Positions 36,332-62,202 of a stretch of 64,000 nt of DNA are shown here, piece after piece. The notes under the pieces are model-generated. The model made no database searches, had not been told where the DNA came from, and worked only from the letters and a program-made list of their open reading frames with translations. The stretch's first letter is position 1. Each line of letters begins with the position of its first letter. Both the position numbers and the translations under genes were made by a program. The DNA is from Pseudomonas sp. MM223 (GTDB lineage: Bacteria; Pseudomonadota; Gammaproteobacteria; Pseudomonadales; Pseudomonadaceae), in contig OX352322.1 in NCBI GenBank assembly GCA_947090765.1, forward strand, positions 4,261,501-4,325,500, written 5' to 3'.

Positions 36332-36345
36332 GATAACATATTAAT
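36332..36345. promoter_or_regulatory. HpaR-like site upstream of the Bcr-type gene
   Basis: GATAACATATTAAT shares TAACATATTAA with the paired sites before hpaG1. Confidence 0.4.
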
Positions 36346-36552: not shown

Positions 36553-36975
36553 TCAGGGCGCAATGCGCTTCAGGTCATTCAACAACCCCATCAGCTGCTG
36601 CAGCTTCTCTTCCCCAAACTGCGCCTGAATCTTCCGGTAGTTGGCCTCCATCCCCTCCTTCATCGAAGCAAAGCACGCCTCCCCGCCTTCGGTCAGGCTG
36701 ACAAACACCCGCCGCTGGTCCTGCGCGGCTTTCTGCCGCCGCACCAGCCCGTCGCGCTCCAGCCGCCCCAACACCCCGGTCATGCTCGGCTTGAGGATGC
36801 AGGCCAGCTCTGCAAGCTGGTAGTTCTCCAGCTCGCCATGCTGCTTGAGGATGCGGATTACCCGCCATTGCTGCTCGGTCAGGTCATGCTGGTTCAGCAG
36901 CGGCCTGAAAAATGCCATCGCGGCTTCTCGGGCCTGCAACAGGCTTAGCGTGAGCGAAGGTTGCGTCTTGGTCAT
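36553..36975 (-). CDS. hpaR: MarR-type repressor of homoprotocatechuate genes (copy 1)
   Basis: 140 aa MarR winged helix (DLTEQQWRVIRILKQHGELENYQLAELACILKPSMTGVLGRLERDGLV). The ATG at 36975 is used; a TTG six bases upstream is unlikely. It has a close paralogue at 48834-49256. HpaR represses the meta-cleavage operon until the aromatic substrate binds. Confidence 0.88.
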   Translation of the reverse strand: MTKTQPSLTLSLLQAREAAMAFFRPLLNQHDLTEQQWRVIRILKQHGELENYQLAELACILKPSMTGVLGRLERDGLVRRQKAAQDQRRVFVSLTEGGEACFASMKEGMEANYRKIQAQFGEEKLQQLMGLLNDLKRIAP

Positions 36976-38129: not shown

Positions 38130-38163
38130 GTTAACATATTAACTATAACATTAACACATTAAC
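38130..38163. promoter_or_regulatory. Tandem HpaR-like operators before hpaG1
   Basis: GTTAACATATTAAC (38130-38143) and ATTAACACATTAAC (38150-38163), both TTAA-N4-TTAA dyads, spaced exactly 20 bp (two helical turns), in the hpaA/hpaG1 divergent gap. Best assigned to HpaR. Confidence 0.65.
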
Positions 38164-48120: not shown

Positions 48121-48222
48121 GGCGCCCTGAAATTGCCTTGCAACAAACATTGACCCGTGCATTTTCGATCACCACAATCCCCCCTCAAGACGCGCGCGGC
48201 CCGCCGCGCCCCTGACGGAGTG

Positions 48223-48822
48223 ATGCAGTTGAAAGACCTTTCCCCTTCTGCGGTGCGTGTGTGCGATGCCGCCGTCGGCCACTTCGCCGAGTACGGCTAC
48301 GACGCCTCCTCGCTGAACGAAATCGCCCAGCTGGCAGGCATGCGCAAGGCATCGCTGTATGCGCACTTTGCCAACAAGGATGCCTTGTTCGTGGAGGTGT
48401 TCCAGCGTGCGCTGGTGCAGGAAACGGCCTTTGTCGAGTACGGCTTTGCACAAGAAGGCCGCGACGGCCTGGCGCCGGGGCACTGGCTGGCCCTGCACCT
48501 GGCCGACCGTTATCGCGACTCGGCCGAACTGCGCTTTGTGTTACGCACAGCGTTCCTGCCCCCGGCGGGCATCAAGCCGATTGTCACTTCAGGCTTTGAA
48601 AAATACCTGGGCGGCATACGCGAAGGGTTTTGCCTGGCCCTGCAAGCTCGCCATAGCTGGGCGCATGAGCAACATAGCCGCCTGGCGCTGTATGCCGATG
48701 CCTACCTGGGCATCATCGACAGCCTGTATGTGGAGCTGATGTACGCCGGCCCCGCCGCCTATGAACGGCGCGCGGCAGCGCTGCTGAAAGTGCTGGAAGA
48801 CTCGCTGTCGCTCAACCACTGA
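48223..48822 (+). CDS. TetR family regulator
   Basis: 199 aa from ATG 48223 with GGAG SD. N-terminal HTH: VCDAAVGHFAEYGYDASSLNEIAQLAGMRKASLYAHFANKDALF. Divergent from the hydroxylase operon; likely controls it or itself. A GTG start 66 bp upstream is possible but lies in the promoter region. Confidence 0.85.
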   Translation: MQLKDLSPSAVRVCDAAVGHFAEYGYDASSLNEIAQLAGMRKASLYAHFANKDALFVEVFQRALVQETAFVEYGFAQEGRDGLAPGHWLALHLADRYRDSAELRFVLRTAFLPPAGIKPIVTSGFEKYLGGIREGFCLALQARHSWAHEQHSRLALYADAYLGIIDSLYVELMYAGPAAYERRAAALLKVLEDSLSLNH

Positions 48823-48833
48823 CGCCTGGCGCG

Positions 48834-49256
48834 TCAGGGTTTGATCTTCTTCATTTCGTCCAGCAACTGCATCAGCTGCTGCAGCTTTTCCTCGCCAAAC
48901 TGGGCGAGGATCTTGTCGTAGTTGCGCGCCATCTCTTCGCTCATCGCCAGGAACGCTTGCTGGCCGGCCTCGGTCAGGCTGATGAACACCCGGCGCTGGT
49001 CTTCCGGCGACTTGCGCCGCGCCACAATGCCGTCACGCTCCAGGCGCTTGAGCACCCCGCTCATGCTGGGCTTGAGAATACACGCCAGCTCTGCCAACTG
49101 ATGGCTTTCCAGCTCACCTTGCTGGCGCAAGATTCGGATAACCCGCCATTGCTGTTCGGTCAGGTCATGGGCATTCAACGCCGGGCGGAAGAACGCCATG
49201 GTGGCTTCGCGCGCTTGCAGCAAAGTCAGGGTGAGGGAGGGTCTTGGTGTGGTCAT
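48834..49256 (-). CDS. hpaR: MarR-type HpaR paralogue (copy 2)
   Basis: 140 aa. Nearly collinear with the 36553-36975 protein along its length (shared PSLTLTLLQAREATMAFFRP-type N-terminus, DLTEQQWRVIRIL, GEEKLQQLM end). Convergent with the TetR gene. ATTAATACATTAAT lies 55-68 bp upstream of its start, a probable autoregulatory site. Confidence 0.87.
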   Translation of the reverse strand: MTTPRPSLTLTLLQAREATMAFFRPALNAHDLTEQQWRVIRILRQQGELESHQLAELACILKPSMSGVLKRLERDGIVARRKSPEDQRRVFISLTEAGQQAFLAMSEEMARNYDKILAQFGEEKLQQLMQLLDEMKKIKP

Positions 49257-49310: not shown

Positions 49311-49324
49311 ATTAATACATTAAT
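49311..49324. promoter_or_regulatory. HpaR-like TTAA dyad
   Basis: ATTAATACATTAAT, perfect 5-bp arms around TACA, in the gap between hpaR copy 2 and the amine-oxidase gene. Confidence 0.5.
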
Positions 49325-49396
49325 AGAATGGTTTCTACCCATTTCCGGGCAGCAATGCCAGCCGCCGGTTGCGCCTGGCAGGCTGGATAAACCCGA

Positions 49397-49414
49397 TGGC
49401 AGGCAAGAACAAGA
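49397..49414 (+). promoter_or_regulatory. FeaR-like site 1 (amine oxidase)
   Basis: TGGCA-GGCAAGAA-CAAGA, ending 82 bp before the ATG of the FAD oxidase. One of five copies of TG(G/T)CA-N8-CAAGA in this module. Confidence 0.6.
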
Positions 49415-49495
49415 CACCTACCGAGCGGCAGGCGCTCAATGCCCGAGCGCCCCGCGAAACGGCCCTAACACAATTCCAATTCAGCAGGCTGCGTC

Positions 49496-50795
49496 ATGAT
49501 CACCTTCGAGAGCCCCACCTACTACTCGGCGACCAAGAAGTACAACCTGAGCTTCCCCACCCTGGAAAGCGACATCGAGGCCGATGTCGTGGTAATTGGT
49601 GGCGGCTTCTCCGGTATCAACACCGCCCTGGAGCTTGCAGAACAGGGCGTGACCAACATCGTCGTGCTCGAAGCCCGCTACCTGGGCTACGGTGGCACCG
49701 GGCGCAACGGCGGGCAGATCATGGCGGGCATCGGCCACGACCTGGAGAAGGTCCGCAGCAGCGTCGGCGATCAGGGCGTGAGGGACATATTCGAGATCAG
49801 CGAACTGGGCGCCGGCATCATCAAGGCACGCATCGCCCGCTACGCCATCGACGCCGACTTCTGCCACGGCTACGGCTACATGGGCTTCAACCGCCGCCAG
49901 GAACAGACCCTGCGCAAGTGGGAAAAGGAATTCAAGGCGATCAACACACGCGACGAAATCCGCTTTCTTGGCGGCAGTGAAGTGCGCCAGATCATCGGCA
50001 GCAACGCCTACAGCAGCGCCCTGCTGCACATGGGCGGTGGCCATGTACATTCACTGAACCTGTTGCTGGGCGAAGCGCAGGCGCTGGTGGGCCATGGCGC
50101 ACGCATCTTCGAACACAGCCCGGCCCTGGAAGTGACCTACGGCGAGCGCATCAAGGTACGTACCGGCCGCGGCTCGGTGCGCGCCAGCAAGCTGCTATGG
50201 GCCTGCGACAGCTTCCTCAACAAGCTGGAGCCGGAGCTGCACGCGCGCACCATCAACACCTATGCCTTCCAGATGATGACCGAGCCATTGCCAGATGAGC
50301 TGATCGAGCGTATCAGCCCGATACGCGGGGCCTACAGCGACATACGCCCGGTCATCGACTATTACCGGGTCACCCGCGAAAACCGCCTGCTGTTCGGCGC
50401 CGCCACCCCCTTAGTCGAGCACTTTCCGCTGGACCTGAAGGCCTGGAACCGCGCCCTGATGCTGAAGATATTCCCCTACCTGAAAGACGTGCGCATCGAC
50501 CTGGCCTGGGGCGGCCCGATGGCCACCAGTGCCAACCTGTTCCCGCAGATCGGCACCCTCGGTAATCGCCCCAACGCCTTCTATGTACAGGGCTACTCCG
50601 GCTTTGGTGTTACGCCCAGCCACATCATTTGCAAGGTCCTCGCCGAGGGCATGCTGGAGGGATCGAAGCGCTATGACCTGATCGAGCTCGGTCAAGCATG
50701 CGCGCATCTTCGGCAAGGACCACTTCCGCCCGCTGCTGCTCACTGCCGGCAAGACCGTGCACCAGCTGTCGGGCTACTTCAACGGCCGTCGCTGA
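49496..50795 (+). pseudogene. FAD-dependent amine oxidase (PuuB/DadA-like), frameshifted
   Basis: The protein is DAO-type: FAD-binding VVVIGGGFSGINTALELAEQG, then GYGGTGRNGGQI and a C-terminal YVQGYSGFGVTPSH. One extra G at 50690-50691 breaks the frame; deleting it restores LIELVKHARIFGKDHFRPLL and a stop at 50793-50795 (432 aa). Without it the frame runs on into the cupin gene. Predicted role: oxidative deamination of an amine (tyramine-like) to the aldehyde; PuuB homologues oxidise gamma-glutamylputrescine. The loss affects only the last ~35 residues, so partial activity is not excluded. Confidence 0.85.
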
Positions 50796-50824
50796 ACCTT
50801 TTGACTCAACCCTGGAGAACTGCC

Positions 50825-51190
50825 ATGACCCTTACCGCCGCCAAGCAAGGCGTACAACTGTCCGAACTCGATGCCTGGGGCACCGTTGCCGACCTGGGCT
50901 CGGAAATACTTGAAGGCGACGTGAAAGCCTTTGGCAAGATGACCTATGGCGCGCCCGACGACGCGGTCAGCAGTGCTTACTTCGGCACTACGCGCGGCAA
51001 GTTCCGCATGGTCTACCCGTTCGACGAACAGGCGGTGATCGTGACGGGCGAAATCCAGCTGACCGATGAATCCACCGGCCAGGTTACCCGCTACAAAGCC
51101 GGTGATGCCTGGTTCGTAACCAAGGGCACGCCGGTGCTGTGGGAAGTGCTGAGCGAGTCGTTCGTCAAGCATTACCTGGCGGTGGCTTGA
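50825..51190 (+). CDS. Cupin domain protein
   Basis: 121 aa cupin_3 (ureidoglycine hydrolase-type) protein: EGDVKAFGKMTYGAPDDAVSSAYFG..., RYKAGDAWFVTKGTPVLWEV. Start at 50825, 29 bp after the oxidase stop. Often paired with PuuB-like oxidases; role unknown. Confidence 0.85.
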   Translation: MTLTAAKQGVQLSELDAWGTVADLGSEILEGDVKAFGKMTYGAPDDAVSSAYFGTTRGKFRMVYPFDEQAVIVTGEIQLTDESTGQVTRYKAGDAWFVTKGTPVLWEVLSESFVKHYLAVA

Positions 51191-51205
51191 GCCTATGGCT
51201 TGAGG

Positions 51206-51298
51206 GCCTCATCGCCGGCAAGCCAGCTCCCACAGGTCTCCACAGGTCTCAAGTTTGGTGGGCTACCTGTGGGAGCTGGCTTGCCGGCGATGAGGCCT
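51206..51298. repeat. REP doublet between cupin and AraC genes
   Basis: GGCCTCATCGCCGGCAAGCCAGCTCCCACAG-type arm and its complement, with a short CTCCACAGGTCTC direct repeat in between; convergent-gene spacer. Confidence 0.75.
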
Positions 51299-51332
51299 GC
51301 ACAAGCACCACAAGACCATGGCCGCTTCACAC

Positions 51333-52274
51333 TCAAACCATCGCCTGCGCCCGGTAATCCTTGGGCGAGCGTTCGAACTGTTTCTTGAACGAACGGCTGA
51401 AATGCGCCGAGTCGGTAAACCCCCACTTGTAGGCAATCGAGGTGATCGACTCGCTCCTGAAGAACGGGTTGGCCAGGTCATCGGCACTGCGCTTCAGGCG
51501 CGCCCGCTGTATGTAGCGGCACACGCTGTCCCCTTCCTCTTCGAACAACCGGTACAGGTGGCGTACCGAAATATTCAGGCGACCAGCCAGGTTGGACGGG
51601 GTCAGCCCTGGCTGTGACAACGACTCGTCGATTACCTGCTGCACATAGCCACGCAGGTTGGCACCGCTCAAGGCCCCCAGGTTGCCCGGTGCTTCGCCAT
51701 GGCGCTCGAAGCCCGGCTCCAGCAAGGCGATGAAGGCGGTTTGCAGCGCATCACCCTGGGCGCCATCGCCACTGACGTTACCGTCTTTGCACAGTTGGTC
51801 CATCAGCACATGCAGCATGCGCCCGCAAGCGTTGCTTGAGGAGATCTTGCCAAACATCGGGCCGCTGCCCTGCACGTACTTGCGCACCTGCTCGCGCGAC
51901 AGGGCCAGCGAGACATGCTCGATCAAGCCGCTGGGCTTGATCTCGCAACGCCCCACCGAATCCATCAGCAGCAACTCGCCCGGCGCCAGGCTGACCTGCA
52001 TGCCACCCTGGGACACGGTGGAATGCCCCGCACGCTGGCTGACCAGAAAGCAATGCTGGTCATCGTCAAGCGTGGGGTTTTCGCCCAGCCGGCGGATGTT
52101 GCCGGCATTGGTGCGCAGGTTGGCCAGCGGCAAGCCAGCGCGGGAAAAGGTAGACACCTCGCCGATGAACAACGAGTGATTGGACGCAAGCTCCGTCTCG
52201 AAGCGGCCACAGATCTGCTGCATGGCCGTGGTCCAGCGTTCCAGCCCCTGACGGTTGGATTGTTGAGTATGCAT
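51333..52274 (-). CDS. AraC-family regulator, FeaR-like
   Basis: 313 aa. N-terminal AraC-binding_2-type sensor (about 30-200) and C-terminal AraC HTH (LAGRLNISVRHLYRLFEEEGDSVCRYIQRARLKRSADDL ... ITSIAYKWGFTDSAHFSRSFKKQF), the organisation of FeaR, which activates amine oxidase and phenylacetaldehyde dehydrogenase genes in E. coli. Genes around it carry a shared TGNCA-N8-CAAGA motif, close to the known FeaR half-site. Upstream lies a 34-bp near-palindrome (52304-52337). Confidence 0.85.
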   Translation of the reverse strand: MHTQQSNRQGLERWTTAMQQICGRFETELASNHSLFIGEVSTFSRAGLPLANLRTNAGNIRRLGENPTLDDDQHCFLVSQRAGHSTVSQGGMQVSLAPGELLLMDSVGRCEIKPSGLIEHVSLALSREQVRKYVQGSGPMFGKISSSNACGRMLHVLMDQLCKDGNVSGDGAQGDALQTAFIALLEPGFERHGEAPGNLGALSGANLRGYVQQVIDESLSQPGLTPSNLAGRLNISVRHLYRLFEEEGDSVCRYIQRARLKRSADDLANPFFRSESITSIAYKWGFTDSAHFSRSFKKQFERSPKDYRAQAMV

Positions 52275-52303
52275 GGCTGCCCTCGACGCAGGATTTGTTG
52301 TTA

Positions 52304-52337
52304 TGCGTGCATTGTTAACATGTTATCAATGCACGCA
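52304..52337. promoter_or_regulatory. 34-bp near-perfect palindrome before feaR-like gene
   Basis: Arms TGCGTGCATTG and CAATGCACGCA flank a core TAACATGTTA; only one of 17 pairs mismatches. It begins 30 bp before the AraC start. The core matches the HpaR-like dyad GTTAACATATTAAC at 12 of 14 positions. Confidence 0.6.
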
Positions 52338-52387
52338 CAACTGTCATCATTTGTCGTTAGACACAGCAAGTCATGTGCCAGGCTACG

Positions 52388-52960
52388 TCAAAGGCTGGGG
52401 AGCAAACGGCTGAACTGGGCCAGGCTGGCCATCAGGTGCACCCGCTGTTGCGGGCTGATCGGAATGTACCGACGAAACGCCGGCATGCGGTTGACCACTT
52501 CGCTGCCACCCATGTGTTCCAGCGTCAGCAGCCATTGGCCGTCGCGCCAGGCCAGGGTCAGGCGCTTGAAATCCAGCGGCATCAGCGCAGCTACCAGTGC
52601 TGCCTGCTGCAGTAACCGCTCGCGCAGTTGGGTGAAGCGCGCCCGGTCGCCCTTGCGGTACACGCAGGCCAGGCCGGTACGGCGCAGCGCACCGGTATGG
52701 CGCAGCTCCAGGCTCACCTCGCCCCCTTGCGGGGCAGCTAGCTGCAGCTGGAACTCACAGGTGACGATGTGCATCAGCAGGTGGGCCTCGACGCGTTCGT
52801 GCACCTTGGCCTGCCAGCCTTGGGCCGGGTCTTGGATCACCCCGGCAGTGGCCAGGTCTTGCTGCCCCAGGTTGCGCGCCAGGCATGCCAGCGTCGCACC
52901 CGGGCGATAGCCGGCAGGCGCCCTTGGCGCCAGCAAGCGTTCACGCAAACTTCTGATCAT
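52388..52960 (-). CDS. DUF3156 family protein
   Basis: 190 aa from ATG 52960 (MIRSLRERLLAPRAP), overlapping the permease stop by 20 bp. Contains GYRPGATLACLARNLGQQDL and LEHMGGSEVVNRMPAFRRYIPI. DUF3156 genes sit next to APC permeases in Pseudomonas; function unknown. The overlap implies translational coupling with the permease. Confidence 0.85.
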   Translation of the reverse strand: MIRSLRERLLAPRAPAGYRPGATLACLARNLGQQDLATAGVIQDPAQGWQAKVHERVEAHLLMHIVTCEFQLQLAAPQGGEVSLELRHTGALRRTGLACVYRKGDRARFTQLRERLLQQAALVAALMPLDFKRLTLAWRDGQWLLTLEHMGGSEVVNRMPAFRRYIPISPQQRVHLMASLAQFSRLLPSL

Positions 52961-54437
52961 GCAGCACGTGCTCCACAGCGTGGCCAGGCTCGGCGGCGAA
53001 CTCTTTCTCGAGCACATCCTCGACCCGCGCCGGCTTGAACGGGTTGACCTTTTGCACGCACAGCGTCCAGAACAACGCATAGGCCGCCGTGGCGCCCAGC
53101 ATGATGGCGAACGGCACGTAGACATCGGCAGGGTTCATGCCCGGCGGTGTGATGAACGCCATGCCGATCAGGATACCGCTGCTGGAAAAAATCTGCGGCA
53201 ACGGGAACAGCGGCGAGCGGTAGGCACGCGGCAAGTCCGGGCGGCGAATGCGCAATATCACCACCGACAGCGTCACCAGCAGGTACGCGGTGCTCCAGGC
53301 GCACACGGCTGCCAGCACCAGGTGCAGGATGTTGTCCGGGTTGCCGCCCAGGTACCAGGCATGCAGGCAAGGGATCAACGCCACCACCAGGATGCACAGC
53401 AGCGGTGTCTTGAAACGCGGGTGCAGGTAGGCGAACACCTTGGGCAACGCGCCGTCGACCGCCATGCCGTAGAGAATGCGTGGCACACCGGCCATCAACG
53501 TGTTGATGGTCGCCGCGCCGGCGAACAGAAAACCGATGCCCAGCCACACCGGGCCGATGTCACCCATCACCTGCTCGGCAAAACGCGGGATGGCCATGGG
53601 CGTGTCCAGCAGGTGCACGCCACTGGCGGCATCCAGCACCACGTTTTCCACCTGGCGCTTCATCGCCGCACCGTAGATGAACATGCAACTGGCCACACCA
53701 AACAGGCCCAGCGCCATGGCCCGCGGCAGCACCCAGGCCGAGCGACGCAGCTCGGGCGCCAGCGGTGTGACGAACTCGCAACCAACGAACATGAACATGG
53801 CCATGCCGACCAGCGACAGGATGGTCATCAGGTCGGTGCCCACCATCGACACGCCGAACGGGCCGTCCAGTTCCACCGCTGGCGCGGCGATCAGGCCAAG
53901 CACGCCGAACACCATCAAGGTGGTCCACATGCCGAAGGTAAGCACCACTTCGGCGCGGCTGAAGGCGCTGACGCCAAAGGCATTGAGCACCGCAAACGCC
54001 ACCACGAAGCACACCCCCAGCAGCCACGAACCACCGGCGGATTCGGCCAAGGTATTGAGGTGCTCGAAGTTCACCAGCGCCATCACCCCCGACAGGATGG
54101 TTTCGGCGGTGCCGGCAAATACATGCACGATCAGGTAGGCCGACAGCGTGCCAGTAATGGCGAAGAAGCGGCCCATGCCGCAGTTGATGTAGTCGTACAC
54201 CGAGCCTGTGGTCGGCAGGATCGACGCGGCCTCGGCAAAGGTGGTGGACTGCGCCAGCATCATCAGTGCGGCGATGACCATGGCCACGGCGAAGGCGCTG
54301 CCGCCAATGCCAAAGCCCATGGTCGCGGTGAGGATCACCGGGCTGGCCATGATCAGCCCGACGGTGCTGGCCAGTGCGGTGGGGAAACCGACCGTGCCGC
54401 GGTTAAGGTGCTCGGTGAGCTTGTTGTTGAGTGACAT
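52941..54437 (-). CDS. APC superfamily amine/amino-acid permease
   Basis: 498 aa from ATG 54437 (MSLNNKLTEHLNRG), about 12-14 membrane segments. APC signature GLIMASPVILTATMGFGIGGSAFA and GVPRILYGMAVDGALPKVFAYLHP. Probably imports the amine substrate of the neighbouring oxidase. A FeaR-like site lies 68 bp upstream. Confidence 0.9.
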   Translation of the reverse strand: MSLNNKLTEHLNRGTVGFPTALASTVGLIMASPVILTATMGFGIGGSAFAVAMVIAALMMLAQSTTFAEAASILPTTGSVYDYINCGMGRFFAITGTLSAYLIVHVFAGTAETILSGVMALVNFEHLNTLAESAGGSWLLGVCFVVAFAVLNAFGVSAFSRAEVVLTFGMWTTLMVFGVLGLIAAPAVELDGPFGVSMVGTDLMTILSLVGMAMFMFVGCEFVTPLAPELRRSAWVLPRAMALGLFGVASCMFIYGAAMKRQVENVVLDAASGVHLLDTPMAIPRFAEQVMGDIGPVWLGIGFLFAGAATINTLMAGVPRILYGMAVDGALPKVFAYLHPRFKTPLLCILVVALIPCLHAWYLGGNPDNILHLVLAAVCAWSTAYLLVTLSVVILRIRRPDLPRAYRSPLFPLPQIFSSSGILIGMAFITPPGMNPADVYVPFAIMLGATAAYALFWTLCVQKVNPFKPARVEDVLEKEFAAEPGHAVEHVLHDQKFA

Positions 54438-54504
54438 TGTTATGCCCCGGCTTGTTTTTGTGGCGTTGAACGAGTGATTACTCTGCGCTGTGGGCGGTAT
54501 GGCG

Positions 54505-54522
54505 TCTTGCCAATGGCTGCCG
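54505..54522 (-). promoter_or_regulatory. FeaR-like site 2 (permease)
   Basis: On the minus strand CGGCA-GCCATTGG-CAAGA; one mismatch (first C for T) to the consensus. 68 bp before the permease start. Confidence 0.5.
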
Positions 54523-54622
54523 CAAGGTTTGTTGCTGCCTGCCAGCAACCAGCCAAGACCCCGCTCCCACAATGGACTGTGCAAGGCTTACCCGACACGC
54601 TTGGCACCCACAGTCATGCCCC

Positions 54623-54640
54623 TGTCACGCAGGCACAAGA
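54623..54640 (+). promoter_or_regulatory. FeaR-like site 3 (aldehyde dehydrogenase)
   Basis: TGTCA-CGCAGGCA-CAAGA, 57 bp before the start. Together with two flanking bases it matches the site at 59159-59178 at 19 of 20 positions. Confidence 0.65.
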
Positions 54641-54696
54641 ACCGCTCTGCCCCGCTCACTAAGCTGCAAGCTTTGGTTACCTGCCCCGGAGTCTGC

Positions 54697-56185
54697 ATGA
54701 GCGACATCACCCTCCTACCTGCCGTCACGGCCTTCCTGGCCCGCGAGCATGGCGTGTTCATCCACGGCCAGCACCTTGCCAGCCAGTCGTCGTCGACAAT
54801 TGCCGTGGTCAACCCGGCCAACGGCCAGACCATCGCCCACATCGCCGACGCCAACCAGGCCGATGTCGACCAGGCTGTCGGGCTCTTCGCGCCAAGGTTT
54901 CACCGCCTGGTCGCACACCAGCCCCGCCGCCCGCGCCGCCGTGCTGTTCAAGCTGGCCGACCTGCTGGAAGCCAACCGCGAAGAGCTGGCACAGCTGGAA
55001 ACCTTGCAGTCCGGCAAGCTGATCGGCATTTCCCGTGCCTTCGAAGTAGAGCAGGCCGCGCACTTCCTGCGCTATTACGCCGGCTGGGCCACCAAGATCA
55101 CCGGCCAGACCATCACCCCGTCGCTGCCCTCGTTCGCCGGTGAGCGCTACAGCGCCTTCACCCTGCGCGAGCCGATTGGCGTGGTGGTGGGCATCGTGCC
55201 GTGGAACTTCGCCACCATGATCGCCATCTGGAAGCTGGCCTCGGCCCTGACCACCGGCTGCAGCATCATCCTCAAGCCCAGCGAATTCACCCCGCTGACA
55301 CTGTTGCGCATCGCCGAACTGGCCACCGAAGCCGGCCTGCCGGCCGGTGCATTGAACGTGCTGACCGGTGGTGGCCTGGTGGGCAAGGCGTTGATCGAGC
55401 ACGCAGATACCGACAAAGTGTCGTTCACCGGCTCCGTCCCTACCGGCATCGCCGTCGGCCAGGCGGCCATGGGCGCCAAACTGACCCGCGCAACGCTGGA
55501 ACTGGGCGGCAAGAACGCGGTGGCCTTCCTGCCCGATGTGGCAACCGACAAGGCCGTGGACGGCATCATCGAGGCCGGCTTCCTGCACTCGGGGCAAATC
55601 TGCGCCGCTGGCGAGCGCTTCTACGTGCACCGCTCGCGCATCGACCCGCTGCTGGACGCGCTGTCGCAGCGCCTGGGCCAGTTGAAAGTGGGCTCGCCGC
55701 TGGACGAAGCTACCCAGTTTGGCCCGGTGGCCAACAAACCGCACCAGCAAAAACTGGCCGAACTGTTCGCCATCGCCCGCGCCGAAGGCAGCCAGATCAT
55801 TCACGGCGGCACGCTGGGCGACGGCCCTGGCTGCTTCGTCGAGCCTACGGTCATCCTCGCCAGGTCGGCCAGCGACACCCTGCTCAACCAGGAAACCTTC
55901 GGCCCGGTGGCGACCTTCCTGCCGTATGACGACGAAGACGAACTGCTGCACCTGATGAACGCCTCGCCCTATGGCCTAAGCGCCAGCCTGTGGACCAACG
56001 ACCTGGGCAAGGCCATGCGCATGATCCCGCAAATCCAGGCCGGTACCCTGTGGGTGAACATGCACACCCTGCTCGACCCGGCTGTGCCGTTTGGTGGCAT
56101 CAAGGCTTCCGGCATTGGCCGCGAGTTCGGCTCGGCCTTCATCGATGACTTCACCGAACTCAAGTCGGTGATGATCCGCTACTGA
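54697..56185 (+). pseudogene. Aldehyde dehydrogenase (FeaB/PadA-like), frameshifted
   Basis: Start MSDITLLPAVTAFLAREHG at 54697. One extra G in GGG at 54880-54882 shifts the frame; removing it restores DQAVGSSRQGFTAWSHTSPAARAA and a 495-aa enzyme. Catalytic Glu (TLELGGKNAV) and Cys (HSGQICAAGERF) and the PFGGIKASGIGREFG end are intact. Resembles phenylacetaldehyde dehydrogenases; predicted to oxidise (4-hydroxy)phenylacetaldehyde to the acid feeding hpa. Internal starts after the shift would lack about 60-80 N-terminal residues. Confidence 0.88.
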
Positions 56186-56216
56186 CCCGCCCCCTGGCCA
56201 AGGCGTGCAAACGCCT

Positions 56217-56234
56217 TGGCAGCCACGAACAAGA
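56217..56234 (+). promoter_or_regulatory. FeaR-like site 4 (porin)
   Basis: TGGCA-GCCACGAA-CAAGA, 130 bp before the porin start, directly after the aldehyde dehydrogenase stop (56185). Confidence 0.55.
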
Positions 56235-56363
56235 CCCCGCCCCATTGCACACGCCCTAATAGGCCATCGCCGCCAACCGCGATGGCCCCTCGCCAGACCG
56301 AGGGTGCCCCCGAACAACAAAGGCCCCTGTGTAGGTGGCCGAGAAAAAACGAGGGATGTACAA

Positions 56364-57674
56364 ATGGTCAAACCACAGACGCTGTCCAGCCTGGCCCTGG
56401 CAACCTTGCTGGCCAGCCAGGCCGCGCCGGCCGTTGAGCCTGTACGCCGACGATGACAGCCACCTGAACGCCGACATGCTGGCGGTATGGGGCATGTTCA
56501 ACAGCCGCAAGAACTACGACGGCACCACGGGTGGTTCGACCTGGCGCGAAGGCTTTATCAAGTATGGCCTTAGCGGTGACCAGGGCCTGGCCGGCAACGG
56601 CACGCTGTATGGCAGCCTGAACTGGGTGAGTTCAGCCACCTGGGGCGATGGCGATGCGGCCGGCAACACTGACGGTTCCGAACGCACCACCAAGATCGAA
56701 GACGCCTTCCTCGGCTGGCGCTCGGCCGACCTGTTCCCGGTGCTGGGCAAAGATGGCGTCGACGTTTCCGCCGGCCGCCAGACCATTCGCCTGGGCAGTG
56801 GCTTTTTGATCAACGACGACGGCCCGAACCTGGGCAATGGCGTCGCCGACGGTGCACTGGACCGTGGCGGCGCTTACTACCTGGCCGCCCGCCACGCCTT
56901 CGACCGCACCGCCATGCTGCGCCTGGGTGGCAGCGATGGCCTGCACGGCAGCCTGCTGTGGCTGAAATCCGACAACCGTGCCCAGGCCGAAACCGAACTG
57001 GCTGCCGGTACCCTCGACTACACCCACGCGCTGGGCACCCTGGGGCTGACCTGGGTTCACGGCATCGACGTCGCCGACCAGTGGGCCAGCGACTTCCAGA
57101 AAGCCCGCGAAGGCATGGACGTGTACAGCGTGCGCGGCGAAGGCAGCGCCGGCATCGACAATGCCAGTTTTGCTTTCGAATACGCCTGGCAGGACAAGAC
57201 CGACGGCCCCGAGCAAGCCTGGTACCTGCAGGCCGGTTACACCTTCGCCGACCTGCCTTGGGCACCGTCGGTTACCTACCGCTACACCCGCTACTCGGCG
57301 GGCTGGGACTCGTTGTTCAGCGGCCTGTCTTCCGGCTATGGCACGTGGTTCCAGGGGGAAGTCGCCGCCAACTACGCCGGCCCGTTCAACAGCAACACCG
57401 GCATCCACCATGTGGGCGTGAAGGCAACACCGCTGGAAAACCTCACGGTCGGCGCGCTGTACTTCGACTTCGACACCGTGCGCACCCGTGACAGCCTCAA
57501 CCTCGATGCCCGGGGCTGGACCTGTACGTGGAATGGGCGGTCAACGAGCACCTGATCATCAGCCCGCTGGTGGGCCTGTACCAGCCGCGCAAGGACGAGA
57601 GCAACGGCGGCAACCAGGTGGGGGGCAATGGCACGAATGTGTACAGCCAGTTGACCGTGGCTGTGCCGTTTTAG
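56364..57674 (+). pseudogene. Outer-membrane porin, two frameshifts
   Basis: Signal peptide MVKPQTLSSLALATLLASQAAPA; an extra T near 56434-56435 disrupts the frame (deleting it gives AVSLYADDDSHLN), and one base is missing near 57511-57515 (restoring ARGLDLYVEWAVNEHL). Corrected length about 436 aa, ending VYSQLTVAVPF (aromatic end). Beta-barrel pattern similar to the alginate-export/DUF1302-like porins; substrate probably an aromatic or amine. Two breaks make it the most damaged gene here. Confidence 0.75.
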
Positions 57675-57701
57675 TGCACATGCAGAAGCCTATGCATTCG
57701 A

Positions 57702-57818
57702 TGTAGGCGCGGCCTTGTGCCGCGAAAGGGCTGCGCAGCAGCCCCTGCAATATCTGTGTCGACGCACAAACCGAGGGGCCGCTTTGCGGCCCTTTCGCGG
57801 CGCAAGGCCGCTCCTACA
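57702..57818. repeat. REP doublet between porin and MFS genes
   Basis: TGTAGGCGCGGCCTTGTGCCGCG on one side and its complement GCGGCGCAAGGCCGCTCCTACA on the other. Confidence 0.75.
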
Positions 57819-57875
57819 GGGTCTGCGTGCTTTAGGAGGTTTGACGTTGGCTGCACTGGCGAATAAGATCCACCA

Positions 57876-57893
57876 ACCTACCGACCGGTAGGT
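57876..57893. promoter_or_regulatory. TetR-type operator before Bcr/CflA gene
   Basis: ACCTACCG-AC-CGGTAGGT: perfect 8-bp arms around 2 bp, 22 bp before the start codon. Confidence 0.65.
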
Positions 57894-57915
57894 GAAAAAT
57901 CAGCCAGAGAAAACC

Positions 57916-59133
57916 ATGCAAGCCAATCCCTCTCCCCTCATACGCTTCAGCTTCGCCTTGGGCCTTGGCCTGATCGGCGCCCTCGGCCCTTCCGCCGTCG
58001 ACATGTACCTGTCGAGCCTGCCGGAAATCGCCAGCCACTATCAAGCAAGCTTCACGCGCGTTCAGCTGACGCTGACGTTCTTCCTGCTGGCCATGGGTGC
58101 CGGCCAGTTGATCTTCGGCCCCATCGTCGACGCCTATGGCCGGCGCAAACCGCTGCTGGCCGGCCTGCTGCTGTTCATCCTGTGCTCGCTCGGCGCAGCC
58201 GCTGCTCCCAGCCTCGACACCTTGATCATGTTGCGCTTCTTCCAGGGCCTGGGCAGCGCGCTGACCCTGGTGGTGATCATGAGCATGGTGCGCGATGTCA
58301 GCCAGGGCGTTGCCGCGACCAAACTGTTTGCCCTGCTGATGACCATCGAAGGCGTGGCGCCAATCCTGGCACCGGCCCTGGGCGGCGTGATCGACGCGCA
58401 TTTCGGCTGGCGTGCAGTGATGCTGGTACTCGCCGGCATGGGCGTGGCAGTGCTGGTCAACAGTGTGTTGAACCTGCCGGAAACCCTGCCCTTGGGTAAA
58501 CGCGAACCCCTGCGCCTGGGCCACGCCTGCCGCACCTACCTGGCCATTTTGGCCGACCGCCGATTCCTGCGCCCGACCCTGGCAGTGGCTGCGGTGTTCT
58601 TCTTCCTGTTCGCCTACATCGGCGGTGCCACCCTGGTGTACCAGGCCCACTACGGCCTGAGCGCCCAGGCCTTCGGCCTGCTGTTCGGCGCCACCGGCGT
58701 GTCGATCCTGTTCGGCGCCATGACGGCCAGCCGCCTGATCAGCCGGCTGGGCCTGAACACCCTGACTCGGGTGGGCGTGCTGTGCATGGCCGGCGGCGCC
58801 TGCATCAGCCTGCTTGGCGCACTGACGGGCCTGGGGCTACCGGGTGTGGCTGGCGGCATGGTGGTAGCCCTGTTCGGCCTGGGGATAGCCGAGTCGACGC
58901 TGATGTCGCTGGTGATGGCCTCGCAGGACAAGGCACTGGGCTCTACCGCAGCGCTGCTGGGTGCCATCCAGCTGTCGGCGTCTGCCGGCGCGGCCCCTCT
59001 GGCAGCGGTGGTACTGAACCACGGCCCGAGCGCGTGGGCCGCGCTGCTGGCCCTGTGCACCCTGTTGGTGTGCCTGTTGACCGCCCTGAGCCTGCGCGAC
59101 ACCCCTGCCAGCTTTTCTCTGGCCGGGCATTGA
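57916..59133 (+). CDS. Bcr/CflA family MFS exporter (second copy)
   Basis: 405 aa from ATG 57916 (MQANPSPLIRFSFALGLG). About 12 membrane segments; motif A GPIVDAYGRRKPLLAGLL; GALGPSAVDMYLSSLPEIASHY matches Bcr/CflA N-termini. A GTG at 57892 is an alternative. Probably repressed by a TetR protein via the site at 57876. Confidence 0.9.
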   Translation: MQANPSPLIRFSFALGLGLIGALGPSAVDMYLSSLPEIASHYQASFTRVQLTLTFFLLAMGAGQLIFGPIVDAYGRRKPLLAGLLLFILCSLGAAAAPSLDTLIMLRFFQGLGSALTLVVIMSMVRDVSQGVAATKLFALLMTIEGVAPILAPALGGVIDAHFGWRAVMLVLAGMGVAVLVNSVLNLPETLPLGKREPLRLGHACRTYLAILADRRFLRPTLAVAAVFFFLFAYIGGATLVYQAHYGLSAQAFGLLFGATGVSILFGAMTASRLISRLGLNTLTRVGVLCMAGGACISLLGALTGLGLPGVAGGMVVALFGLGIAESTLMSLVMASQDKALGSTAALLGAIQLSASAGAAPLAAVVLNHGPSAWAALLALCTLLVCLLTALSLRDTPASFSLAGH

Positions 59134-59160
59134 TTCCCTGGCACTGAGGGTCAACTCGCC

Positions 59161-59178
59161 TGGCACGCAGGCACAAGA
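59161..59178 (+). promoter_or_regulatory. FeaR-like site 5 (OCD operon)
   Basis: TGGCA-CGCAGGCA-CAAGA, 81 bp before the OCD-fold gene; same spacing as site 1 (82 bp). Confidence 0.65.
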
Positions 59179-59258
59179 CGACCTACCAGTCGTTAGCGAA
59201 ACTGGCTGCCACGTCACCAACAATAAATCCGACGGCAGCCAGCCCTGCGAGACCCGCT

Positions 59259-60397
59259 ATGACCCTCGATACCAGAATTGACTTCATCTACTTGTCCGAG
59301 CAGGACATGATCCGCGCCGGCGTCACCGACATGCCGGCCTGTGTCGACACCATGGAAGAAATGTTCGGCCTGCTGTACCAGGGCGACTACCGCATGGCCG
59401 GCCCGAACAGCGACTCGCACGGCGCGATGATCACCTTCCCCGAGCACTCGCCGTTCCCCAACATGCCCAAGCCCACCGCCGACCGGCGCATGATGGCGAT
59501 GCCAGCGTACCTCGGTGGCAACTTCCAGACCGCAGGCGCCAAGTGGTACGGCTCCAACATCGCCAACCGCGAAAAAGGCCTGCCCCGCTCGATCCTGATG
59601 TTCACACTCAACGACGCCGATACCGGTGCACCGTTGGCGCACATGTCGGCCAACCTGCTGTCGGCCTACCGCACCGGTGCCATCCCGGGTGTCGGCGCCC
59701 GCCACCTGGCGCGCAAGGATGCCAAGGTTATCGGCCTGGCCGGCCCAGGGGTGATGGGCAAGACCACGGTCGCCGCGTTCATGGCCGTCTGCCCGCTGAT
59801 CGACACTATCAAGATCAAGGGCCGTGGCCAGAAGAACCTGGATGCGTTTGTCGCCTGGGTGAAAACCACCTTCCCGCAAATCACGCATGTCCAGGTGGTT
59901 GAAACCCTGGAGGAAGTGGTGCGCGGTTCCGACCTGGTCAGCTACTGCAGCCGGGCGAAGTCGGCGACCCCAGCCAGTACCCGCTGGTACGCCGCGAGTG
60001 GGTCAAGCCTGGCGCGTTTCTGGCCATGCCGGCCCCGTGCAGCATCGACGCCGGCATGGAGCAAAACGACGTGCGCAAGGTGGTGGACAACACCGGCCTG
60101 TACGAGGCCTGGTTCGAAGAGCTGCCCAAGCCTGCGCACAACCACGTGCCGCTGGTAGGCGTGCGCTTCATGGACATGATTGCCGAAGGCAAGCTGGCCG
60201 CCGAGCAGGTCGAAGACATCGGCAAGATCATCAGCGGCGACGCACCAGGCCGCCTGCATGACGACGAAATCATCCTGATGTCGGTGGGCGGCATGCCCGT
60301 CGAAGACGTGGCCTGGGGCACCGTGGTGTACCGCAAGGCGCTCGAGCAAGGCATCGGCGTGAAGCTCAACCTCTGGGAAACCCCCGTTCTCAGCTGA
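59259..60397 (+). pseudogene. Ornithine cyclodeaminase/mu-crystallin family protein, frameshifted
   Basis: OCD fold: GSNIANREKGLPRSILMFTLNDADTGAPLAHM, NAD(P)-binding GLAGPGVMGKTTVAAF. One base is missing near 59952; restoring it gives SYCSSGEVGDPSQYPLVRREWVKPGAF and a 379-aa protein ending WETPVLS. From memory, close homologues in Pseudomonas and actinomycetes are named 'tyramine oxidase subunit B'. Heads a probable operon with RidA, a DadA-like oxidase and an MFS permease. Confidence 0.82.
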
Positions 60398-60429: not shown

Positions 60430-60852
60430 ATGACACAGATCATCAAACTGAAAACCGGCTCCAAGTTCGAAGACATGGCCAGCTACTCCCGCCTGGTGGC
60501 AGTGGACAACTGGATTCACGTCTCCAACACCGCCGGGCGCAACCCGCAGACCCAGGTCATTCCGGAGGACGTCATCGAACAGACCCACCAGGTGTTCGCC
60601 AACATCGAAACGGCCCTAGCCGCGGTGGATGCCAGCCTGGCCGACGTCATCAACTCACGCGTGTTCATCCAGGACCCTGCCGATGTGCCACGGGTAATGG
60701 ACGTGATCGGCGAGAAGTTCCGCGGCATTGACCCGGCCACCACGGTCACTTGCCCGCCGCTGGGCTCGACCGTTTACAAGGTGGAGCTGGAAGTCACCGC
60801 CTACCGCGGTGCGGGGCAAGCGCAAGTGACCATGATCCGCCTTGGCCAGTGA
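60430..60852 (+). CDS. RidA family (enamine/imine deaminase) protein
   Basis: 140 aa YjgF/RidA fold: VSNTAGRNPQTQVIPEDVIEQTHQVFANIETALAAVDASLADVINSRVFIQDPADVPRV. The usual catalytic Arg (in NSRVFI) is present. Probably hydrolyses reactive imines made by the neighbouring amine oxidases. 32 bp after the OCD gene. Confidence 0.92.
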   Translation: MTQIIKLKTGSKFEDMASYSRLVAVDNWIHVSNTAGRNPQTQVIPEDVIEQTHQVFANIETALAAVDASLADVINSRVFIQDPADVPRVMDVIGEKFRGIDPATTVTCPPLGSTVYKVELEVTAYRGAGQAQVTMIRLGQ

Positions 60853-60906: not shown

Positions 60907-62202
60907 ATGTCTCCCACGATCGCCCCTGTGCAAACCAGCACCCGCCACCCCGACGCCACCACCGTGGTGATTATCGGTGGCGGCATTATCGGCCTCACCG
61001 CCGCACTGAGCCTCGCCGAACGCAACATACCGGTGGTGGTACTGGAAAAGGGGCGCATCGCTGGCGAACAGTCGTCGCGCAACCTGGGCTGGGTACGCAA
61101 GACCAACCGCCACGCCCACGACATTCCCCTGGCGCTGGCAGCTGATCGGCTTTGGGCCGAGATGCCCGCACGGGTGGGTAGTGACGTCGGCTATCGCCAG
61201 GCGGGCATCATGTTTATTGGCCGCAACGACACCCAGATGGGCATGCACGAAGGCTGGCTGAAAAGCGTCGAGGCGCTGGGCCTGGATTCGCGCCTGCTGA
61301 GCGCGCGTGAAATCGCCCGGATGGTGCCGGGTGGCCGGGCGGATTGGGCGGGCGGCATCTTCACCCCCTCAGACGCCCGCGCCGAACCCACCCTGGCTGC
61401 CAGCGCCATCGCCCGTGCGGCAATCGCCAAAGGCGCGGTGGTGGTGGAGAACTGCGCGGTGCGCACCCTGGCCACCGCAGCCGGCCGTGTCAGCGGGGTG
61501 GTCACCGAGCAAGGCGAAATCCGCTGCGACCAGGTGTTGCTGGCCGGTGGCCTGTGGTCGCGCAAGTTCCTTGGCAACCTGGGTATCAACCTGCCGACCT
61601 TGCCACTGACCTGCTCCGTGCTGCGCACAGAGCCCATGGACGGGCCGACCGACATCGCCGTTGGCGCACCAGACTTTTCCTTCCGCAAGCACAAGGACGG
61701 TGGCTACATCATCACCCAGCGCGGCGCGCTGGATGCCTTCCTCACCCTGGACCACCTGCTGCTGGGCAAGCGCTACCTGCCGCAGCTGCGTGCCCAGCGT
61801 GACTTTTTGCGCATCAGCTTTGGCAAGTACTTCTTCAAGGACCTGGCCCTGGCCCGGCGCTGGAAGGCCACCGATGTCACCCCTTTCGAGCGGGTACGGG
61901 TACAAGACCCGCACGCCAACCCGGCACTCAACGACGAGGCCATGCGCAACCTGAAAGCGGCCTGGCCAGTGTTCGAACAGGCACGCATCGCCAGCGCCTG
62001 GGCCGGCACCATTGACGTTACCCCCGACTCCAACCCGGTCATCGGCCCTGTGGCCAGTATCCCGGGCCTGACCCTGGCCACCGGTTTCTCCGGGCACGGC
62101 TTCGGCACCTCGCCTGCTGCCGGCCAACTGGCGGCAGACCTGGTAGCCCAGGCTACCCCGCTGATCGACCCGTCCCCGTACCGCTTCGAGCGCTTCGCCT
62201 GA
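60907..62202 (+). CDS. FAD-dependent amine/D-amino-acid oxidase (DadA-like)
   Basis: 431 aa DAO fold: VVIIGGGIIGLTAALSLAERNIPVVVLEKGRI, C-terminal GFSGHGFGTSPAAGQLAADL. Intact. Likely an amine dehydrogenase acting with the OCD-fold and RidA proteins. Third gene of the operon. Confidence 0.9.
   Translation: MSPTIAPVQTSTRHPDATTVVIIGGGIIGLTAALSLAERNIPVVVLEKGRIAGEQSSRNLGWVRKTNRHAHDIPLALAADRLWAEMPARVGSDVGYRQAGIMFIGRNDTQMGMHEGWLKSVEALGLDSRLLSAREIARMVPGGRADWAGGIFTPSDARAEPTLAASAIARAAIAKGAVVVENCAVRTLATAAGRVSGVVTEQGEIRCDQVLLAGGLWSRKFLGNLGINLPTLPLTCSVLRTEPMDGPTDIAVGAPDFSFRKHKDGGYIITQRGALDAFLTLDHLLLGKRYLPQLRAQRDFLRISFGKYFFKDLALARRWKATDVTPFERVRVQDPHANPALNDEAMRNLKAAWPVFEQARIASAWAGTIDVTPDSNPVIGPVASIPGLTLATGFSGHGFGTSPAAGQLAADLVAQATPLIDPSPYRFERFA

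Follow-up and report, generated by a model that had tools for sequence, protein, structure and literature searches.

Class II operators of the AraC/XylS family of regulators are built from a pair of direct repeats at a distance of about 21 bp; each repeat is a box in two parts, and the proximal copy covers the -35 element. The consensus of Escherichia coli FeaR is TGNCA-N8-AAA, and in Pseudomonas putida U a tyn cluster with an AraC-type regulator is reportedly coupled to the hpa cluster in a Tyn/Hpa 3,4-dihydroxyphenylacetate catabolon, as Arcos et al. are said to have described in 2010. According to PMC4640556, E. coli FeaR regulates the product of tynA and activates feaB, and PMC7180172 places TTAA-N4-TTAA within the HpaR footprints of Yersinia pseudotuberculosis. 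Here, we analyse a 64,000-nucleotide stretch of Pseudomonas sp. MM223, a member of the P. putida group (assembly GCA_947090765.1, contig OX352322.1, positions 4,261,501 to 4,325,500, forward strand), termed the window, which contains a FeaR gene in the middle of an amine cluster. To judge from sequence data, five sites in this cluster are very probably operators of this FeaR, a predicted class II AraC-type activator of genes for an oxidase, a permease, an aldehyde dehydrogenase and a porin and of an operon beginning with an OCD-fold protein.

The initial annotation had reported a single box at five places, and all five positions are correct. The exact box, TGKCA-N8-CAAGA, lies at 49397-49414, 54623-54640, 56217-56234 and 59161-59178, whereas the minus-strand copy at 54505-54522 is one base off, with C replacing the first T, as had been stated. 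Each box stands before the gene that had been named for it (oxidase, permease, dehydrogenase, porin and OCD operon), and the sequence confirms the distances to the start codons, approximately 82, 68, 58, 130 and 81 bp. The annotation had missed a second copy of the repeat: each box is the promoter-proximal half of a direct repeat of approximately 40 bp, with the second copy 21-22 bp upstream, and the true unit is this tandem, computed directly together with its spacing, and not a lone box. The tandem follows the pattern TGGCA-N8-CAA-N5/6-(T/C)GGCA-N8-CAAG, in which the monomer box has two parts, an A half (TGGCA) and a B half (CAA(G)).

Upstream of the permease-DUF3156 unit, the tandem (54505..54544, minus strand; proximal half 54505-54522) is a 22-bp repeat with 0 mismatches, its distal half reading TGGCA-N8-CAA and its proximal half CGGCA-N8-CAAGA. 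The tandem upstream of the OCD-RidA-FAD oxidase genes (59139..59178, plus strand; proximal half 59161-59178) is likewise a 22-bp repeat with 0 mismatches, composed of TGGCA-N8-CAA and TGGCA-N8-CAAGA, and that of the porin (56195..56234, plus strand; proximal half 56217-56234) has the same 22-bp spacing with 1 mismatch, composed of TGGCC-N8-CAA and TGGCA-N8-CAAGA. The other two tandems, both on the plus strand, are 21-bp repeats: the one before the FAD oxidase of the DAO type (49376..49414; proximal half 49397-49414) has 1 mismatch and the halves TGGCA-N8-AAA and TGGCA-N8-CAAGA, and the one before the aldehyde dehydrogenase (54602..54640; proximal half 54623-54640) has 2 mismatches and the halves TGGCA-N8-CAT and TGTCA-N8-CAAGA. 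The distal half of the porin tandem overlaps an inverted repeat downstream of the dehydrogenase gene.

The best -10-like hexamer, whose position was also computed directly, lies 19-20 nt past the proximal box in 5/5 promoter families, and the proximal box therefore covers the -35 position. In the window these hexamers are CTCAAT (49435-49440) for the oxidase, a weak CAGAGT (54480-54485) for the permease, whose site is on the minus strand, TAAGCT (54660-54665) for the dehydrogenase, CCTAAT (56255-56260) for the porin and GAAACT (59198-59203) for the OCD operon. Over the families, the mean number of matches to the six letters of TATAAT is 3.18 for the oxidase, 2.15 for the permease, 2.88 for the dehydrogenase, 3.75 for the porin and 3.00 for the OCD operon.

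The annotation had held chance recurrence of the box to be unlikely, which stands for the exact form (4 matches in the window against 0.19 expected; 0/100 dinucleotide shuffles gave 4) and fails at one mismatch, where the box occurs at chance level (12 matches against 8.83 expected; 20/100 dinucleotide shuffles equalled 12). In the 6.73-Mb genome the exact single box has 33 matches, 29 of them outside the window, compared with 10 for a reversed-pattern control, and it was dismissed as a genome-wide signature; because the one-mismatch box is at background and 29/33 exact matches lie elsewhere, the single box does not define the regulon. Among the 26 of these 29 outside matches that were retrieved, one has a tandem partner scoring at least 7, in a promoter of a second FeaR cluster (L013). 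The genome scan that the annotation had proposed thus finds the single box unspecific and the tandem concentrated, since the oxidase, permease, porin and OCD promoters account for 4 of the 5 tandems with no more than one mismatch. These scans listed the first 100 places, including all places with at most two mismatches. The 22-bp tandem is exact only at the permease and the OCD operon and has one mismatch only at the porin; the 21-bp tandem is nowhere exact and has one mismatch at 2 places, the oxidase and a site a short way beyond the window's end. Allowing up to three mismatches gives 112 places for the 22-bp form (17 for its reversed control) and 157 for the 21-bp form (39 for its control).

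Conservation, also computed directly, was scored in upstream regions taken from 81 feaR loci, that of the window and 80 related ones (L031-L110); 77/80 of the related records are titled Pseudomonas. A region was kept if the homologue match started at most 26 residues from the N-terminus with at least 45% identity and at least 80 bits and if 300 bp were available, which gave 258 regions: 55 oxidase (the window included), 80 permease, 58 dehydrogenase, 57 porin and 8 OCD, the window's own dehydrogenase being absent because of its frameshift. The tandem spacing was left free between 18 and 26. A tandem scoring at least 14/17 was found in 257/258 regions, whereas the 258 shuffled regions reached 14 once and the 258 reversed regions stayed at or below 13; the shuffles of the upstream regions, like those for the E. 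coli stretch and the dyad scans below, kept base composition and not dinucleotides. The scores are 14-17 of 17 in 55/55 oxidase upstreams, 16-17 in 80/80 permease upstreams (all at 22-bp spacing), 14-16 in 58/58 dehydrogenase upstreams of relatives, 14-16 in 56/57 porin upstreams and 16-17 in 8/8 OCD upstreams. Spacing is 21 or 22 bp except in 5/258 regions, four dehydrogenase regions at 23 and the porin region of L037. Conservation is highest at the box positions; the N8 spacers vary between promoter families and are partly conserved within a family.

The tandem also accompanies the regulator across the genus, as computed directly in 119 Pseudomonas genomes. A FeaR of the window type (E at most 1e-70) is encoded in 32/119, and the exact 22-bp tandem occurs in 29/32 of the genomes with it and in 0/87 of those without it (Fisher p 1e-24, not corrected for relatedness), the reversed control occurring in 0/119. 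The three FeaR genomes lacking the exact form are G276 and G297, which have tandems scoring 15-16, and G214, where FeaR was matched by its C-terminal part only. Among 185 class-level genomes, one passed the FeaR cut-off, the window's own. The site also follows its target away from the regulator: in G208 (L145) the OCD operon lies 89 kb from feaR and still carries a 17/17 site. Distant sites in relatives, and the surroundings of the extra tandem in the MM223 genome, were scanned with a slightly laxer box whose third position could be G or T; the distant tandems of G216 and G236 adjoin a third FeaR-like gene (39-40% identity). The annotation's proposed comparison of orthologous clusters thus comes out in favour of the sites as tandems, in 257/258 upstream regions of 81 feaR loci, with the exact 22-bp form found among the 119 genomes only alongside window-type FeaR. 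Its suggestion that the porin, the permease and the OCD protein come under one regulator is supported by the same conservation and co-occurrence.

The regulator gene at 51333..52274 (minus strand), described as intact, FeaR-like and AraC-type, is indeed open; the 313-residue product, the proposed activator, scores 398.9 bits over residues 1-311 on the NF007243 model (cut-off 199; E. coli FeaR scores 504.4) and 73.4 bits on HTH_18. Its proposed first target is the FAD-dependent DAO-fold oxidase at 49496..50796 (plus strand; PF01266, 179.4 bits), followed by a cupin gene at approximately 50825-51190. The second is an amino acid permease family protein at 52959..54434 (minus strand; PF13520), whose end is overlapped by a DUF3156 open reading frame (ORF) at 52388-53125 (PF11354); feaR lies on the same strand as this pair, 113 bp beyond the DUF3156 ORF. 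The third target, at 54698..56185 (plus strand; PF00171, 483.8 bits), resembles phenylacetaldehyde dehydrogenase, its nearest model being that of StyD, the phenylacetaldehyde dehydrogenase, at 513.7 bits and under the cut-off of 850. The fourth, at 56364..57674 (plus strand), is a probable outer-membrane porin with a weak PF13372 match (22.1, cut-off 25.2) and an L033 orthologue of 436 residues. The fifth begins with an OCD-fold 'tyramine oxidase subunit B' at 59259..60397 (plus strand; NF004848, 458.5 bits against a cut-off of 362, residues 1-239), followed by a candidate RidA-like gene at 60430-60852, read as such by eye with no NCBIfam match, and a second FAD oxidase at 60907-62202, which matches NCBIfam FAD-oxidase models. 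A sequence search of solved structures at E 1e-10 returned none related to the oxidase and matched FeaR by its DNA-binding part only.

On this basis, two FeaR subunits would bind the tandem repeats and bring in RNA polymerase as class II activators do. The ligand is probably an aromatic amine or its aldehyde, and the description of FeaR as amine-sensing, like its binding to the sites and its action as an activator, is to be taken in the same conditional sense. A single signal would raise outer-membrane entry through the porin and uptake through the permease-DUF3156 unit, and would also raise oxidation by the FAD oxidase and by the OCD and FAD oxidase operon and oxidation of the aldehyde by the aldehyde dehydrogenase. 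From the names of the enzyme models and the presence of hpaA, hpaG, hpaE and hpaD in the window, we infer that the substrate may be tyramine or a similar aromatic amine, the product of which, (hydroxy)phenylacetate, would feed the adjacent hpa genes. The order permease-DUF3156-feaR on one strand would allow positive feedback.

The E. coli site had been matched to the window by shape, and this likeness holds for one half only: the TGNCA half agrees, and the second half is CAAG(A/C), shifted by one base. Where the strict TGNCA-N8-AAA has AAA, the five proximal boxes read CAA, and among the distal boxes that of the oxidase alone reads AAA. In E. coli K-12 the feaB and tynA promoters each contain a 21-bp TGKCA-N9-AA tandem scoring 14/14, of the form TGTCA...AAA before feaB and TGGCA...AA before tynA, and 17/20 shuffles of the 12-kb E. 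coli stretch contained no score of 13 or more. The first recognition helix is alike in the two proteins, SVRHLYRLF in the window FeaR and SVRSLYRMF in that of E. coli, with the helix residues assigned by our own reading. A literature search, hampered by the word 'fear', yielded no published FeaR site, and unpublished status cannot be claimed for the Pseudomonas operators.

The sites could instead serve FeaR-family proteins in general, with a second FeaR as the main regulator or with the two cross-regulating, which we consider unlikely. The second FeaR (G000:C1:2716580-2717494 in the MM223 genome, 27% identical to the window FeaR) is encoded in an amine dehydrogenase cluster (L142 11913-17353; G000:C1:2715912-2721352), which resembles methylamine dehydrogenase clusters (heavy chain PF06433, MauE) and also encodes a cytochrome c, an aldehyde dehydrogenase and a porin. 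This FeaR passes NF007243 with 396.5 bits; its cluster has three 21-bp tandems of the same, E. coli-like type, scoring 13-14 of 14, and in G255 a FeaR of this second type adjoins the oxidase. Against this, the exact tandem tracks the window-type FeaR in the 119 genomes, in which the distribution of the paralogue was not scanned, and the sites of E. coli and of the paralogue cluster mostly have CAAA one base earlier and a 21-bp spacing, whereas 3/5 window sites have 22 bp. It is less probable still that the box is an extended promoter, or the site of another regulator travelling with the cluster, and no FeaR operator. The proximal box does overlap the -35 region, and some of its conservation could be a core-promoter feature, but sigma-70 promoters do not feature a 40-bp direct repeat with a 21-22-bp period, the same kind of tandem precedes the E. 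coli genes that FeaR controls according to PMC4640556, and the exact 22-bp form is found in 0/87 genomes without window-type FeaR. That five short boxes were merely picked by eye has a negligible probability: the single box, at chance in the window with one mismatch and with 29/33 exact matches elsewhere, would allow it, but the tandem statistics and the conservation, 257/258 regions and 0/87 genomes without FeaR, contradict it.

Several observations weigh against FeaR as the activator acting at all five sites. The dehydrogenase tandem has two mismatches, a class that it shares with 25 other places in the genome (26 in all); the genome scan by itself would not single it out, and the site rests on conservation. 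The permease -10 match is weak, averaging 2.15 of 6 letters, the L037 porin upstream is without a tandem site (score 12), and the counts across the 81 loci are not independent because the loci are related. Identity between the window FeaR and its E. coli counterpart is only 26%, and these sites could also be bound by the paralogue, the second FeaR. The permease, oxidase and aldehyde dehydrogenase of G255 (L148 and L149) carry tandems beside a FeaR of the other type, with a window-like FeaR (54%) 840 kb away from them, which makes this genome a natural test case for cross-regulation, and in relatives several tandems scoring 15-17 have no assignable target gene (for example, L148 17053, L151 6431 and L154 13353). 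In the MM223 genome, a one-mismatch tandem 634 bp beyond the window end (G000:C1:4326134-4326171; L144 7135-7172, minus strand) was set aside, with no gene found facing it; it sits 3 nt past the stop of a plus-strand gene, pointing back into that gene. Finally, this assembly has single-base frameshifts, relative to three relatives, in four of the five target genes, at approximately 50683 in the oxidase, 54881 in the aldehyde dehydrogenase, 56439 and 57514 in the porin and 59951 in the OCD gene, with positions agreeing within 2 nt across all three relatives. The frameshifts may be sequencing errors or real decay of the four genes; HpaR, FeaR, DUF3156, the permease, the Bcr/CflA transporter, the RidA-like gene and the aligned part of the second oxidase have no frame-changing indel relative to the same three relatives. 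The FeaR operator reading remains the one we favour.

A second layer of control may connect this cluster to the hpa genes, of which hpaA, hpaG, hpaE, hpaD and hpaR lie in the same window. HpaR, a MarR-family protein (48834..49256, minus strand; TIGR02337, 179.8 bits against 121.2), is a candidate repressor of feaR, and the feaR promoter contains an imperfect dyad, TTAACATGTTATC (52315..52327), as its candidate operator. The copy reads TTAA-CATG-TTAT, one half being imperfect relative to TTAA-N4-TTAA; its core, AACATGTTA (AATATGTTA in one locus), is present in 81/81 loci and the 13-bp pattern in 73/81. Across the 6.73-Mb genome the strict dyad, TTAAYAYRTTAAY, has only three occurrences: two lie between hpaA and hpaG1, where HpaR-type dyads occupy 38131-38162, and one lies in hpaR's own promoter (TTAATACATTAA, 49312-49323). 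With one position relaxed, the exact places are hpaA-hpaG1, hpaR, feaR and 36333, a scan that is not independent because the pattern was relaxed after the feaR copy had been seen; with one further mismatch the count is at control level (16 against 15). The dyad at 36333 lies near a second HpaR gene (36556-36975, 73% identical to the first) and a gene read by eye as a Bcr/CflA-like transporter. HpaR is encoded in 31/32 FeaR genomes and in 4/87 others. The feaR-promoter palindrome was also considered as an RNA hairpin with covarying arms, which is unsupported: at 12 or more positions from the centre, pairing is near the expectation from column make-up, and the positions with more pairing, position 11 (14 of 59, with 7.7 expected) and, by a wide margin, position 8 (49, with 31.5 expected), are near or inside the dyad.

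In the oxidase promoter, the FeaR box and the -10 hexamer flank a further palindrome, CCTACCGAGCGGCAGG (49417..49432), a candidate TetR operator. Palindromes of the same type (CCTACCGNNCGGTAGG type) occur in the OCD promoter (59182-59197) and, as a perfect copy, before the Bcr/CflA transporter gene (57877-57892), and a TetR gene lies at 48157-48822 (PF00440). Allowing at most one mismatch, CCTAMC-N4-GKTAGG is found between the FeaR box and the -10 hexamer in 25/55 oxidase promoters; a homologue of the window TetR is present in the locus for 18/25 promoters with the palindrome and 8/30 without it (p 0.001, not corrected for relatedness), the absences being soft because flanks were limited to 10 kb. 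A TetR repressor may occupy these palindromes at the oxidase and the OCD operon, where they separate the FeaR box from the -10 hexamer, and also the copy before the Bcr/CflA transporter gene.

Together, these elements suggest that the amine and hpa clusters might form one circuit, in which FeaR activates, HpaR represses feaR through the conserved dyad and TetR sits on the palindromes, a reading to which we give a little less than an even chance. As HpaR is the repressor of the lower 4-hydroxyphenylacetate pathway, its repression of feaR would mean that the pathway product raises its own upstream activator, as we propose. The dyad pattern is found before hpaR in only 10/52 loci holding an HpaR gene, which counts against the HpaR-feaR link and lowers the probability of the three-regulator circuit.

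The system is a FeaR-type regulon of many Pseudomonas; its architecture is known, its box and its set of targets are its own, and a tie to HpaR is plausible. A group of neighbouring genes can thereby be described as one defined regulon whose operator can be measured, and the porin, the DUF3156-linked permease and the operon of the OCD-type 'tyramine oxidase subunit B' would be assigned to aromatic-amine catabolism in many Pseudomonas species. The operator model itself becomes sharper, a tandem of 21-22 bp that fits the E. coli promoters too, and the data suggest that the upper amine pathway is coupled directly to the lower hpa pathway. Sensing of biogenic amines bears on biosensors as well as on bacteria of the rhizosphere and of food.

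Compared with described systems, the hpa part of the locus resembles that of HpaR in Y. pseudotuberculosis and E. coli W in carrying the TTAA-N4-TTAA dyad before hpaG1 and hpaR, and differs in an imperfect copy before feaR, a target that does not appear in the available part of PMC7180172. As in the E. coli FeaR regulon, an AraC-family regulator over the cut-off of the same equivalog model is accompanied by TGKCA-type tandems before oxidase and dehydrogenase genes. The A half of the box is identical, whereas the B half, CAAG, lies one base further on than in the majority of boxes in E. coli, and the spacing is 21 or 22 bp. The oxidases of the cluster are FAD enzymes, the first of the DAO family, with no copper enzyme TynA among the targets, to which a porin, a permease and the OCD operon are added. 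Class II operators of the XylS/AraC type share with these sites the direct repeat of two-part boxes and the proximal box at -35, and differ in box sequence and in the 22-bp spacing found at 3/5 window sites. As in the Tyn/Hpa catabolon reported for P. putida U, the amine and hpa genes occur together, the FeaR cluster sharing one window with hpaA, hpaG, hpaE, hpaD and hpaR.

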